NCBI GenBank assembly: GCA_905236755.1
Contig: CAJOCR010000010.1
Coordinates: forward strand, 62,001 to 126,000
Origin: an uncultured Prevotella sp.
GTDB taxonomy: Bacteria; Bacteroidota; Bacteroidia; Bacteroidales; Bacteroidaceae
Direction: 5' to 3'
Length of the DNA stretch: 64,000 bases
Shown: positions 7,678-44,441 of the stretch, one piece after another
Numbering within the stretch: the first letter of the stretch is position 1
Layout: every line of letters starts with the position of its first letter
The notes under the pieces: model-generated
What the model was told of the DNA's origin: nothing
The model's input: the letters and a program-made list of their open reading frames with translations, nothing else
Databases searched by the model: none
Position numbers and translations under genes: made by a program

Positions 7678-7753
7678 TGTAAATTCAACCAAAAAGAATG
7701 ATACTTTTTTGATTAATAATAATACTTTGCTAATTTTATTTTTCCCTCATGCC

Positions 7754-7824
7754 TTCGAGATGCCTTCGAGATGCGTTCGAGATTCTCGATATTTCATTAG
7801 GATGCGTTTAGGATTCATATAGGA
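7754..7824. repeat. 11-bp-phased repeat array A between divergent PUL promoters
   Basis: TTCGAGA at 7754, 7765, 7776; TTAGGA/ATAGGA at 7797, 7808, 7819. Spacing is 11 within each block. Confidence 0.85.
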
Positions 7825-7898
7825 CAAATATTTTTTTGAAAAACAAAATAGTATCATCTTTTGGCAAAAAAATATTAGTACAAGAAAAATATTCTTAC

Positions 7899-20534: not shown

Positions 20535-21800
20535 ATGAAAAAATTACTAATTATATTATTTTCCTTTATGTCTATGAGTTCTTTTGCCGCTGACAATTTC
20601 GTAAAAGCTGAAAATGGTCGTTTTATTCGTGACGGCAAACCATATTATTATATTGGCACCAACTTCTGGTATGGCGCAATACTTGGTAGTACCGGACAAG
20701 GTGGCAATAGACAACGCCTCATTAAGGAACTTGATGCTATGAAGAAAAATGGAATCGACAACCTTAGAATTCTTGTTGGTTCAGATGGCGAAGAAGGTTC
20801 ACCTGTTAAAGTACAACCTACTCTTCAAAAGGCACCTAATGTTTATAATGACAGCATTCTTGATGGTCTTGATTTCCTTTTGAAAGAAATGGGCAAACGA
20901 AATATGTTAGCTGTTCTGTATTTGAATAATTCTTGGGAATGGAGCGGCGGATATGGGTATTATCTTGAACAAGCTGGATGCGGTCCAATACCTCTTACAT
21001 CAAGAGATGGCTACCCTGCATTCATGAAATATTGTTCTCAGTTTGCTACAAATACTAAAGCACAACAATTATTTTACGAATATGTTCGCTTTATACTTGG
21101 TAGGAAAAATCGTTATACAGGAAAGAAATATATTGACGATACAGCTATCATGAGTTGGCAAATAGGAAATGAACCACGAGCATTTGACAAGAACGTTTTA
21201 CCACGATTTGAAAAATGGTTGAGTGAAACATCTGCATTAATACGCAGCTTAGATAAAAATCATCTTATAAGTGTTGGTTCTGAAGGCGCTTGGGGATGCG
21301 AAAATGATATTTCTTGTTGGGAACGCATCTGTTCTGACAAAAACATAGATTATTGCAATGTACACCTATGGCCTTACAACTGGGGATGGGCACATAAAGA
21401 AACATTACTTGAGGACATAGATATTAGCTGTAAAAACACAGAAGAATATATCAATATGCATCTTGCTGTTTGTGAACGAATTAACAAGCCTCTTGTGATG
21501 GAAGAGTTTGGTTACCCACGTGATGGCTTTTCTTTTTCACCAAAATCATCTACAATAGCTCGAAACAAATATTACAAATATGTCTTTTCGCTTGTAGGAA
21601 ATGATAAATGCGGACTTTTTGCAGGTTGTAATTTCTGGGGATGGGGCGGTTTTGCAAAACCAAAACACGAGAATTGGATTCCAGGAGATGACTATACTGG
21701 TGACCCTGCGCAAGAACAACAGGGACTTAATTCTGTATTTATCACAGATAAAGAAACGCTAAATATCGTGAAGAAAGAAGCCAAAAGACTTAAGAAATAA
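20535..21800 (+). CDS. GH5 (GH5_7-like) beta-mannanase, secreted
   Basis: FVKAENGRFIRDGKPYYYIGTNFWYGAILGS, AIMSWQIGNEPR (acid/base), PLVMEEFGYPRDG (nucleophile). Confidence 0.88.
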   Translation: MKKLLIILFSFMSMSSFAADNFVKAENGRFIRDGKPYYYIGTNFWYGAILGSTGQGGNRQRLIKELDAMKKNGIDNLRILVGSDGEEGSPVKVQPTLQKAPNVYNDSILDGLDFLLKEMGKRNMLAVLYLNNSWEWSGGYGYYLEQAGCGPIPLTSRDGYPAFMKYCSQFATNTKAQQLFYEYVRFILGRKNRYTGKKYIDDTAIMSWQIGNEPRAFDKNVLPRFEKWLSETSALIRSLDKNHLISVGSEGAWGCENDISCWERICSDKNIDYCNVHLWPYNWGWAHKETLLEDIDISCKNTEEYINMHLAVCERINKPLVMEEFGYPRDGFSFSPKSSTIARNKYYKYVFSLVGNDKCGLFAGCNFWGWGGFAKPKHENWIPGDDYTGDPAQEQQGLNSVFITDKETLNIVKKEAKRLKK

Positions 21801-21818
21801 GTTGCAAAGGCATTTTTT

Positions 21819-22046
21819 CTATAGTTCAACCATACTCTAACCATAACACTACTATACCACTACTATACTACAACTATACCCTTCTTCCGTCTCTTGTCCG
21901 TTTGTTGTTCGATTGTTGTCCGTTTGTTGTCCGTTCATTTAACGGACAACAAACGGACTTCAAACGGTTATCATTCGGACAAAGAACCTTGTTGTGGTAT
22001 AGGAGTGGTATAGTTAGAGTATGGATATGATATAGTTGTGATATAG
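21819..22046. repeat. 11-bp-phased dyad repeat array B, about 20 units
   Basis: CTATAC/CCATAC-type units at 21819, 21830, 21841, 21852, 21863, 21874; GTCCG units at 21896, 21907, 21918, 21929; CGGAC units at 21943, 21954, 21965, 21976; GTATAG units at 21996, 22007, 22018, 22029, 22040. Confidence 0.92.
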
Positions 22047-22118
22047 AAAAAACTGGCAACCAGAATAAGCATAATAAACATTTAGCACTAAGTGCGTTTC
22101 TTATTCCAAATTCTTTTG

Positions 22119-22126
22119 TATCTTTG
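22119..22126 (+). promoter_or_regulatory. Bacteroidota -7 box (TATCTTTG) upstream of mscS-like gene
   Basis: TAnnTTTG, 48 nt upstream of ATG at 22174; lies within the CTAAGTGC/GCACTTAG inverted repeat (right arm starts at the last base of the box). Confidence 0.6.
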
Positions 22127-22173
22127 CACTTAGTTAAATAGCATTCATTTTTAATCAAGAATAGTATTCTGGT

Positions 22174-24570
22174 ATGAAAAAAATTATTCTCATCATATTA
22201 CTAACACTTGTTTTGTTGCCTGCCAATGCTGTTCTAAAGGAAAAAAACCTTGAGAACACATTATCTATTCTACGTTCTGAGTTGACTAACTATCGTGCAG
22301 AGTTAGAACGCCAGTCGGGCTACATTAAAGAACAACAGCTAAAGGTGCGCACGAATATCATGGGAGTAATGAATCAGAGCAACCTGAATGCGTTGATGCT
22401 CTATTCACAGAAGCCAGAATATGTATTTGACCTCGCATATGCTTGTCAGGAAGCAACCAAACAATATCAAGCCTTCACTAAGGACGTATTGCCTTTCAGA
22501 AAGTTTATTGATAAAAGTAATGCTCAGGTGGCAAGATACGATTCATTGGTGGCATCACTTTCCACGATGCGCACAAATACCCTATCCGAGAAAGCATTAA
22601 TTGACCGCAATGTGTGTCTCACATTAGCAGTGAACATCCGCAGAACGCTGAACGACAACAGTCAGCAGATGAGCGAATATATTCGTTATTACAAGATGAC
22701 TGAGCAGCGTTTGAGCAACCTCAACGACTATGCCAACAAGAGATATTTAGAAATTCAGAACAATATTTTCAGCAATTCTGGAGAAAACTATTTCAACACA
22801 CTTAACAATCTTGGTACTCAGATAAGAGATACAAAAGACGATATTCAGCAGAAATATCTTATCAAGACAAGGGTTCGTTCACAATGGGATATCCGTTTGA
22901 TATTGTTCTTGTTTTCTATGATTATTTTCTATGGGTTCATAGCTGGATTACTTAATTACCTGTTTTTTAGATTTATTCTTCCGAAGCGTATTGTAAATAA
23001 AATAACAGGCCGAGATAAGATTGAAGAAACTACCTCTGCCGAAGAACAAAAGAAAATAAAGAAGGCTGCCAAGAGCAAGAAAACTTGTATCACAATGGCC
23101 ACTTCTGTTATTTCATTAGCTATAATATTGGGAATTCTAAGATTAGTTTTTGCGGAACAGAACTTCCTTGTTATGGCAAGCGGATTACTGGTACAATTTA
23201 CTTGGCTGATGGGCGTAATACTAATCTCGCTGCTGCTTCGCTTAAAAGGCAACCAGATTATGAGTGCATTCAGAATTTATTCGCCAATCATGGCTATAAC
23301 ATTCGTCATCATTGCATTCCGTATAGCCTTTGTGCCTAATGACATGACAAATCTGGTATTGCCACCAATACTGCTTATTGCAACAATATGGCAACATAGC
23401 GTGATAAGACGTCACGGCAAGAACATTCCTAAAAGCGATGTAATTTACACATGGATGACCCAGATTGTATTCATTGGTTCCACCATCGCATCATGGTTAG
23501 GCTACGACCTGCTCTCTGTTCAGGTGATTATATGGTGGACTATGCAGATGGCATGTATCTTGACCATCAACTGTATTACCCAATGGATGCATGGCTATTT
23601 CGAGCGTCATGAAATTATGAAACAGCCAATCACCAAGACATGGCTGGTAAGGTTTATCTATTATGTTGTTTTGCCTTGCTTAGGTGTTTATTCATTCATC
23701 ATAGCTCTATATTGGGCTGCAGATGTATTCAACCTAAGTGAGACTACATGGATGATATTCACAAAGGAATATATCCACACCGATAATTTCTCTGCAAGTA
23801 TCTACACCTTGTGTCAAGTTATAGTGTTATATATATTCTTCTCGTATATCAACCACACAACAAAGGCGTTACTGAAACATCACTTCATTAAAACCGACCC
23901 AGATTCGGCTGCCAGTCGTATCACCATGTCGAAGAATGTGATTCAAGTTTTGGTATGGGGCATTTGGTTGTTTATTGTATTGGGCATTTTCAACGTAGGA
24001 ACAAAATGGCTGCTCACCATTGGTACTGGTCTTTCAGCCGGTTTGGCATTTGCGTCAAAGGATATTCTTGAAAATATATACTACGGTATATCACTCATGG
24101 CAGGACGCGTAAAGGTGGGTGACTATATCATCTGCGACGGTCAGAGAGGAAAGGTTATCTCTATAAGTTACACCTCAACCATGGTTGAGGCAACAGACGG
24201 TTCAGTGATTGCATTCACCAACTCACAGCTGTTCACTAAAAACTACAAGAACCTTACAAAGAACCACGGCTACGAGATGGATATTCTTGAAGTTGGTGTT
24301 GCATACGGTTCGGATATTCCAACAGTAAAAAAATTGTTGATTGACGCTATCGAGAAACTCGAATGCATTGATCACGACCGACCCGTGAAGGTGGTACTGA
24401 AAGAGTTTGGTGACAATTCAGTAAACCTGAAGATTCTTGTATGGGTACCAGTATTAGGCCAATATGGTGCTGGTGGAGAAATCATGGAATGTGTGTATAA
24501 CACACTAAGCAAGAATAATATTGAAATTCCATTCCCACAAAGAGATATTAGAATTATAAAAGAAAAATAA
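22174..24570 (+). CDS. Mechanosensitive ion channel (MscS family), large form
   Basis: Multiple TMs; LLTIGTGLSAGLAFASKDILENIYYGISLMAGRVKVGDYIICDGQRGKVISISYTSTMVEATDGSVIAFTNSQLFTKNYKN. Confidence 0.93.
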   Translation: MKKIILIILLTLVLLPANAVLKEKNLENTLSILRSELTNYRAELERQSGYIKEQQLKVRTNIMGVMNQSNLNALMLYSQKPEYVFDLAYACQEATKQYQAFTKDVLPFRKFIDKSNAQVARYDSLVASLSTMRTNTLSEKALIDRNVCLTLAVNIRRTLNDNSQQMSEYIRYYKMTEQRLSNLNDYANKRYLEIQNNIFSNSGENYFNTLNNLGTQIRDTKDDIQQKYLIKTRVRSQWDIRLILFLFSMIIFYGFIAGLLNYLFFRFILPKRIVNKITGRDKIEETTSAEEQKKIKKAAKSKKTCITMATSVISLAIILGILRLVFAEQNFLVMASGLLVQFTWLMGVILISLLLRLKGNQIMSAFRIYSPIMAITFVIIAFRIAFVPNDMTNLVLPPILLIATIWQHSVIRRHGKNIPKSDVIYTWMTQIVFIGSTIASWLGYDLLSVQVIIWWTMQMACILTINCITQWMHGYFERHEIMKQPITKTWLVRFIYYVVLPCLGVYSFIIALYWAADVFNLSETTWMIFTKEYIHTDNFSASIYTLCQVIVLYIFFSYINHTTKALLKHHFIKTDPDSAASRITMSKNVIQVLVWGIWLFIVLGIFNVGTKWLLTIGTGLSAGLAFASKDILENIYYGISLMAGRVKVGDYIICDGQRGKVISISYTSTMVEATDGSVIAFTNSQLFTKNYKNLTKNHGYEMDILEVGVAYGSDIPTVKKLLIDAIEKLECIDHDRPVKVVLKEFGDNSVNLKILVWVPVLGQYGAGGEIMECVYNTLSKNNIEIPFPQRDIRIIKEK

Positions 24571-28329: not shown

Positions 28330-28401
28330 GCAATGCAGAGCATTGCTAAATGAAAAATGACAAATGATAAATGATAAATGATAAAGAAGCGCGAAGCGCT
28401 T
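28330..28401. repeat. Hairpin + 5 x 7-bp tandem (AAATGAN) + GAA-triloop hairpin
   Basis: GCAATGC-AGA-GCATTGC (28330-28346); AAATGAA/AAATGAC/AAATGAT x3 (28348-28382); AAGCGC-GAA-GCGCTT (28387-28401). Confidence 0.85.
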
Positions 28402-43920: not shown

Positions 43921-44031
43921 CATGTTTTTTGCCCGAATTCCCTTTGTAGATAGGCGATGAGAGAGTTTTGCATCGCAAAATGATCTAATTTTGAACAACC
44001 AACTGTTTTTCTTCGTATCTTTGCAATGTGA

Positions 44032-44092
44032 TTAGGAGCCAATTAGGACTCATATAGGAGGCATCTCGAACGCATCTCGAAACTATCTCGAA
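44032..44092. repeat. 11-bp-phased repeat array C
   Basis: TTAGGA/ATAGGA at 44032, 44043, 44054; TCTCGAA at 44064, 44075, 44086. Confidence 0.85.
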
Positions 44093-44191
44093 GGCGAGAG
44101 CAGAGCAAAATTTATTTTGACTATGCCGAGACAAGAGATGGTTGGACAAAGTCAACGAATCTCGAAGTCTTGCGCAAGCCAAAGGCGTGCT

Positions 44192-44219
44192 AAATGATAA
44201 ATGATAAATGATAAACGAT
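44192..44219. repeat. 4 x 7-bp tandem (AAATGAT/AAACGAT)
   Basis: AAATGAT at 44192, 44199, 44206; AAACGAT at 44213. Confidence 0.85.
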
Positions 44220-44366
44220 AATGATAAAGCCCCATTCCAGCCTTCCCTCCAGAAGCCCCTTCCCAGCCTTCAATGGTCTTTACCCCCCCCTTCGGTTCCC
44301 CCGTCCCCGGGGGACAGGAACCTCCAGAGGGAAGGAGTCGTAAACAGACAAATACCTCCTGCTAAT

Positions 44367-44441
44367 ATCTCTCCCCTCATGAGGGGAGTAAGGAGGGGTC
44401 TTAAATCTCTCCCCTCTGGAGGGGAGTTGGAGGGGTCTTTG
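44367..44441. repeat. 38-bp tandem duplication with internal CCCCTC/GAGGGG hairpins
   Basis: ATCTCTCCCCTCATGAGGGGAGTAAGGAGGGGTCTTAA followed by ATCTCTCCCCTCTGGAGGGGAGTTGGAGGGGTCTTTG. Confidence 0.85.

Follow-up and report, generated by a model that had tools for sequence, protein, structure and literature searches.

Dispersed 11-bp-phased arrays in Prevotella, with matching arrays upstream of small orphan genes

The element described here lies in a 64,000-nucleotide stretch of the genome of an uncultured Prevotella sp. (the window), between a glycoside-hydrolase-like gene that is the last of a polysaccharide locus (20535..21800, + strand) and an mscS-like channel gene (22174..24570, + strand). 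Both were taken from the list of open reading frames and named from their sequence and, for the former, also its position. The element (21813..22052, no strand assigned) is an imperfect inverted repeat of two 112-nt arms, 21813-21924 and 21941-22052, which are 71% complementary and enclose a 16-nt centre, with arm ends as set by an ungapped repeat finder. An earlier, sequence-only reading of the window had described four blocks of short units in this gap, and all four blocks were recovered where it had placed them. First, the left outer arm (21819..21884, +) is made of six CTATAC/CCATAC-N5 units that start every 11 bp, at 21819, 21830, 21841, 21852, 21863 and 21874. Second, the left inner arm (21885..21935, +; direct-repeat family D1, spacing 11,11,11,11) consists of GTCCGTTTGTT units starting at 21896, 21907, 21918 and 21929, preceded by a degenerate extra unit at 21885. 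Third, beyond a 5-nt dyad-centre loop, CATTT (21936..21940, no strand assigned), which was delimited by core comparison and differs between copies, the right inner arm (21941..21986, −) holds CGGACAACAAA-type units, the reverse complement of the left inner type, starting at 21943, 21954, 21965 and 21976. Fourth, the right outer arm (21997..22046, −) has five GTATAG/GTATGG/ATATAG-N5 units, at 21997, 22008, 22019, 22030 and 22041. The dyad centre falls at 21938, and the inner arms are perfect over 18 bp. The exact 11-bp register previously proposed for the whole element needed correction: the register is kept within each half, but the right outer block follows the right inner block at a step of 21 bp instead of 22, and the halves are related by the dyad and do not run in one continuous register.

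Self-identity of the element was 0.56 at lag 11, 0.47 at lag 22 and 0.44 at lag 33, with other lags below 44 giving about 0.2-0.35 and most lags other than multiples of 11 about 0.27, and its lag-11 score was not equalled anywhere in the 64-kb window at the other lags from 5 to 25. Compared with dinucleotide shuffles, its folding z-score was -12.2 as RNA and -13.5 as DNA, values that mix the contributions of repeat and dyad and are no demonstration of hairpin formation.

Beyond what could be seen from the window, the element is a member of a dispersed family with matching arrays before particular genes. Searches with blastn against the genome gave 13 further places, for a total of at least 14 dispersed copies of this family, termed F1 (GTCCGTTTGTT/CTATAC). 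The F1 arrays are about 200-240 bp long, are built of 11-bp units and include subfamilies with common flanks; the gene context of the solo arrays is varied, and no conserved neighbour gene was found for them. Blastn detected no F1 homologues in a set of 39 further genomes, 23 from the genus and 16 from the order. The exact F1 core pattern was present in nine of 398 genus genomes and in 44 GTDB stretches, all named Prevotella, Prevotellaceae, Bacteroidaceae, Bacteroidales or Bacteroidetes, which were mostly MAGs (RUG, RGIG, UBA etc.), several of them labelled rumen or omasum, plus Prevotella sp. tc2-28. A viral origin of the arrays was rejected, as the core pattern and both partner proteins (see below) had no match in IMG/VR. 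Across species, the inner GTYCGWTTGTT units remain constant, as does the 22-nt spacing of the flanking cores, which is invariant among the F1 copies aligned; the 5-nt loop varies, and the outer-arm motifs are swapped at a constant 11-bp step (CTATAC-N5; CTAATTCTACT; CCCACTTCTTA). Many copies occupy the same site in different species, and the orthologous elements L012 and L047 are one 11-bp unit apart, with an inverted loop (TTCAAATAA vs TTATTTGAA).

At some copies, sequence identity to other species changes abruptly. In a comparison with Prevotella sp. UBA4376, the upstream neighbour of the window element is 93-97% identical to its counterpart, a level kept until 138 bp ahead of the array centre, and the downstream mscS-like gene is about 83% identical. 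This sharp identity step, at 21800-22174 of the window (L012, G000:C2:79870, where G000 is the present genome), runs from 93-97% on the polysaccharide-locus side to about 83-86% on the other. At another element, a group of eight species showed 90-98% on one side and 83-91% on the other. The elements may be borders of exchanged segments; at its opposite end, the exchanged polysaccharide locus on C2 showed no element.

Several elements adjoin a gene of about 240 codons whose product has no Pfam, NCBIfam or PHROG match. Its representative in the present genome (C16:98170, 235 aa) has an F1 array just upstream. The family was found in 35 of the 398 genus genomes, with up to five copies in one genome, and in four of the nine genomes with the strict F1 core (hypergeometric p 0.005); it was missing from five F1-negative genomes chosen among relatives. 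Of the 33 copies whose upstream region was clean over 300 bp or more, which include copies from other Prevotella, all 33 had an upstream lag-11 score of at least 35/55, and none reached this score at the other lags from 7 to 16. Baseline frequencies of upstream lag-11 arrays were 12 of 409 genes in the present genome (3%) and three of 302 in other Prevotella stretches. The resulting Fisher p of about 1e-40 overstates independence, because the 33 copies are related by descent; since the motif differs between copies, however, inheritance of one sequence is insufficient to explain the association of gene and array. Homologs at 20-30% identity likewise have phased arrays, with new motifs, such as AATACCATTAT, in which the dyad is slight or missing. 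In two genomes with F1 arrays, Prevotella sp. tc2-28 (G366) and G394, no F1-type gene was detected, so that solo arrays persist without it. As for the protein itself, we found no match to a known DNA-binding domain in proteins of the array-linked kind, and no catalytic motif, transposase match or matching solved structure for the partner. A structure model of the F1 partner built from eight sequences was poor (mean pLDDT 50), and the fold search was uninformative.

Near-identical copies of the gene occur in different surroundings, and in such pairs the common sequence extends from the vicinity of a promoter-like TAnnTTTG box as far as the stop codon, with homology ending no more than about 4 bp from it in L087/L089, L180/L182, L191/L213 and L211/L214. 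The array is therefore probably part of the 5' leader, and many gene-linked arrays sit between such a Bacteroidetes-type box and the start codon. Leader and gene copies of this sort, together with the 14 dispersed F1 copies, their subfamilies with common flanks and the patchy presence of the gene noted above, are what would be expected of selfish, REPIN-like mobile repeats, copied either by the gene product, as a new nuclease or transposase, or by an unrelated transposase, with the solo arrays as non-autonomous members. We hold this to be a possible but unfavoured explanation. The stop of similarity at the stop codon can also be explained by faster divergence of non-coding sequence; many copies lie at the same site between species; neither target-site duplications nor fixed ends were seen by eye in the 14 copies and the gene-linked pairs, few of which offer true empty sites; and neither a catalytic motif nor a transposase match was found in the partner protein.

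The leader position also raises the question of whether the arrays act as RNA. One turn of A-form RNA is 11 bp. The array could be a transcribed 5' leader whose folded form is bound by the protein it encodes, with the solo arrays as leaders or small RNAs that fold alike, and the strong hairpin score (z -12.2) and some solo arrays of another family (F2, below) with a promoter box directly before the array would agree with it. We nevertheless judge this explanation to be a minority one, on a par with that of mobile repeats. Arms of the same copy paired no better than arms taken from different copies, that is, the arms show no coevolution, and arm pairs on the sense strand comprised 97 G-U against 81 A-C, with no clear excess; both tests are less than decisive, given the relatedness of the copies and the near-constancy of the inner core. 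Moreover, in the divergent branch of the gene family the phase is retained where inverted arms are slight or missing, and the window copy, placed in the sense orientation of the linked gene, is antisense to both of its neighbours. The two tests on the arms and the divergent branch also gave no support to a hairpin or to a cruciform, which the sequence-only reading had offered as one option, as the functional form, and we rejected it as the conserved form. The suggestion of that reading that what counts in the element is the phasing of its units on one face is supported, since the 11-bp step is kept with wholly different motifs between families and species. The best reading of these comparisons is that the arrays act at the level of DNA rather than RNA. 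Known structured RNAs were discarded separately, as all Rfam hits were far below the gathering threshold (e.g., mir-3613, 31.7 vs 91).

When 557 kb, or 19% of the genome, was scanned by lag, with arrays called at 42 or more matches in 66 bp, 13 arrays were obtained at lag 11 and zero, two and zero at lags 10, 12 and 13, so that runs at 11 bp do not occur at a background rate. Some arrays were also obtained at lags 7, 8, 9 and 22, those at lag 22 being expected from 11-bp arrays and those at lag 7 corresponding in part to a TAAATGA heptad, of which the window has two repeats (28347-28385 and 44191-44228). In four other Prevotella genomes, of which shorter stretches were scanned, zero to one lag-11 arrays were found. 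By motif, at least four families exist besides F1, namely, F2 (TCCTATATGAA and TCTCGAAGGCA), F3 (CTCTATAATGC), F4 (CGCTAAGGTAA and TTAGAGAACGA) and F5 (CATCCTAAACG). Two F2 arrays, with no strand assigned, are in the window: one of ATGCCTTCGAG units followed by TTTAGGATTCA-like units (7749..7830), and one of ATTAGGAGCCA and TCTCGAACGCA units that immediately follows a promoter-like TATCTTTG box (44030..44097). Two other kinds of repeat were noticed. In the window, a CCTCCCCTC...GGAGGGGAGGTTAGGAGGGGTCTAA repeat (44367-44439) resembles the sequence just before the start codon in the leaders of L274, L280 and L281; and a repeat of about 34 bp of the GTTAATAGATAA type, at about 6413-6447 of L051 (G414, MAG RUG14564), has about 40 matching places in that genome.

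The arrays of the scanned sample were distributed over divergent (5 in 12.9 kb), convergent (3 in 10.2 kb) and tandem (5 in 38.2 kb) gaps; a preference for divergent gaps, hinted at by the first counts, was weak after correction for gap length. This distribution bears on the idea of a bidirectional terminator, intrinsic or Rho-type, with the C-rich arm first on both strands, for which the window element has a suitable feature in that each strand is entered via a C-rich, G-poor arm. Yet a terminator would be found at gene ends, and not in all three types of gap; the linked arrays are upstream of their gene; and in the window element the T-tract after the hairpin is missing on either strand, with an A-tract following the outer arm on each, and YC dimers are absent from some units. 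We thus regard termination as very improbable.

Solo and gene-linked arrays of one genome match each other in motif. First, 12 of 13 F1 solos had their top score against the array of their own C16:98170 gene among about 50 gene-linked arrays. Second, F4 was best matched by the array of C19:20066 of the same genome, a second homolog (score 54, shuffled maximum 18). Third, F2 was best matched by L277 (C28:66941, own genome; the best gene-linked match of the array at 7749..7830) or by L281 (UBA4376), both of which are best matches of the array at 44030..44097, with scores of 18-49 and shuffled maxima across tests of 13-18; F3 by L278 (UBA4376; scores 24-25); and F5, weakly, by L280 (19, shuffled maximum 16). 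The F5 match and the weakest F2 matches are marginal. The F2 arrays precede small genes in the present genome (C28:66941) and in UBA4376 (C132), the F3 array precedes a UBA4376 gene (C104), and an F5-like run precedes C7:24440. These gene-linked F2 and F3 arrays are short, and other lags score equally high there. The partner genes were found stepwise, from homolog to homolog and then through a common C-terminal tail, so the assignment of F2, F3 and F5 was not pre-specified, and the agreement of their motifs was checked after the genes had been found. This C-terminal tail is common to the proteins L218, L276, L273 and L275 and an HU-HIG DNA-binding protein of the present genome, L274. A glycine/asparagine-rich tail, GGGGSTNPxPNPSTGG, is seen in L274 (G000:C16:37337), L218 (C19:20066) and L277 (C28:66941).

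The cognate match is also relevant to whether the arrays could be functionless 11-bp tandem repeats that grow and shrink by neutral slippage, as the one-unit difference and inverted loop between the orthologs L012 and L047 might indicate. Slippage would not predict this match, nor the tight link to one gene family, nor a step of 11, rather than 10, 12 or 13, across unrelated motifs, and we consider it improbable, less so than termination.

A distant homolog, L205, provided the sole route from the orphan gene to genes in other families of Bacteroidales, where distant homologs pass the Pfam model of DUF6266 (PF19781; L220, E 2e-13; L219, E 3e-9). The F1 partner, the C19 protein and the F2 and F3 partners have no Pfam hit to DUF6266; the likeness of the F2, F3 and F5 partners, also without a Pfam hit, comes solely from inspection of an N-terminal motif. 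PF19781 was present in 33 of 247 genomes of the order and in none of 14 control genomes. Upstream lag-11 arrays (at least 30/44) were found for 12 of 55 DUF6266 genes, compared with five of 55 at the best of nine other lags; most classic DUF6266 genes are without an array, and the paralogs of one genome (G522) each have an array with a different motif. A search of the literature, with most subscription journals outside its reach, returned no paper that names DUF6266. That relatives of the orphan gene across Bacteroidales often have their own 11-bp arrays, in different letters, points to what would be an undescribed array-plus-gene system.

We propose, with a probability of about 0.5, that the element in the window belongs, as a solo copy, to a two-part system formed by a phased array and the gene of a small DUF6266-type protein, which would bind the array as DNA. 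Such a system, in Prevotella and other Bacteroidales, would combine an 11-bp-phased and usually inverted array with a small gene that encodes a DUF6266-type protein, or a protein whose N-terminal module is similar, and that has an array of the same motif in its leader; the dispersed families, their phase, the array in front of the gene and the agreement in motif within a genome are observed. The partner most likely binds DNA, with a recognition site in each helical turn: the protein would occupy one face of the array, with one protomer per turn, probably cooperatively. The earlier proposal of a protein polymerising along one DNA face would be compatible with the arrays. The gene-linked array would then make the partner gene self-regulating, and solo arrays would be either dispersed copies or further targets for that protein. 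Within this proposal, the link between array and gene is much firmer than the protein-binding step. It is tempting to speculate, more tentatively, that small proteins throughout Bacteroidales (DUF6266 and relatives) read DNA by helical phase, each paralog with its own motif, protein and array changing motif together, and with several array-protein pairs and dispersed targets per genome, a generalization that we regard as less likely than the proposal itself.

To our knowledge, no described system combines a phased array with a linked gene in this way, and the literature search, again with most subscription journals beyond its reach, found neither a paper on 11-bp repeats in Bacteroidetes nor a system with the same combination. 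In the ParR/parC centromere of plasmid R1, arrays of 11-bp repeats adjoin the gene of their own binding protein, which lines one face of the DNA. The arrays described here share the 11-bp iterons, but they are inverted, chromosomal and dispersed, and their motifs change between paralogs; inspection of the neighbouring genes by eye revealed nothing like ParM or ParR. DUF6266 itself comprises some homologs of the linked gene, and some of its genes bear 11-bp arrays, but the F1-linked orphan family is without a Pfam hit to it. The logic resembles that of REPIN-RAYT systems, in which three REPIN groups each adjoin one RAYT (PMC3116915): several repeat families per genome, each beside its own related gene, and many dispersed, inverted, intergenic copies. 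The partner proteins, however, are not RAYTs and lack a Y1/HUH domain by Pfam (Y1_Tnp, PF01797, had no match in UBA4376 and G394, and a marginal one in the present genome), and REPs are short palindromes of 20-40 bp, in contrast to arrays of about 20 units at an 11-bp step. The nearest described Bacteroidales repeat is BrickBuilt, a minisatellite-MITE of Porphyromonas gingivalis, which is intergenic, has 19 copies per genome and promoter activity, and consists of short tandem repeats with a 23-nt unit, flanked by a leader and a tail and bounded by small inverted repeats (PMC4596501). It has in common with our arrays that it is a multi-copy, intergenic element of short tandem repeats, whereas the arrays have 11-bp units, mirrored arms and a linked gene family, and fixed ends were not found.

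With these results, a gene family of unassigned function (DUF6266) gains a concrete partner sequence, and the arrays represent a case of conserved spacing without conserved sequence. In rumen Prevotella, moreover, some borders of polysaccharide loci that were exchanged recently fall at such arrays. If the arrays move, they would constitute a second REPIN-like system with unrelated machinery; if the proteins bind them, nature would here provide a series of DNA-reading proteins, each paired with its array and differing in specificity.
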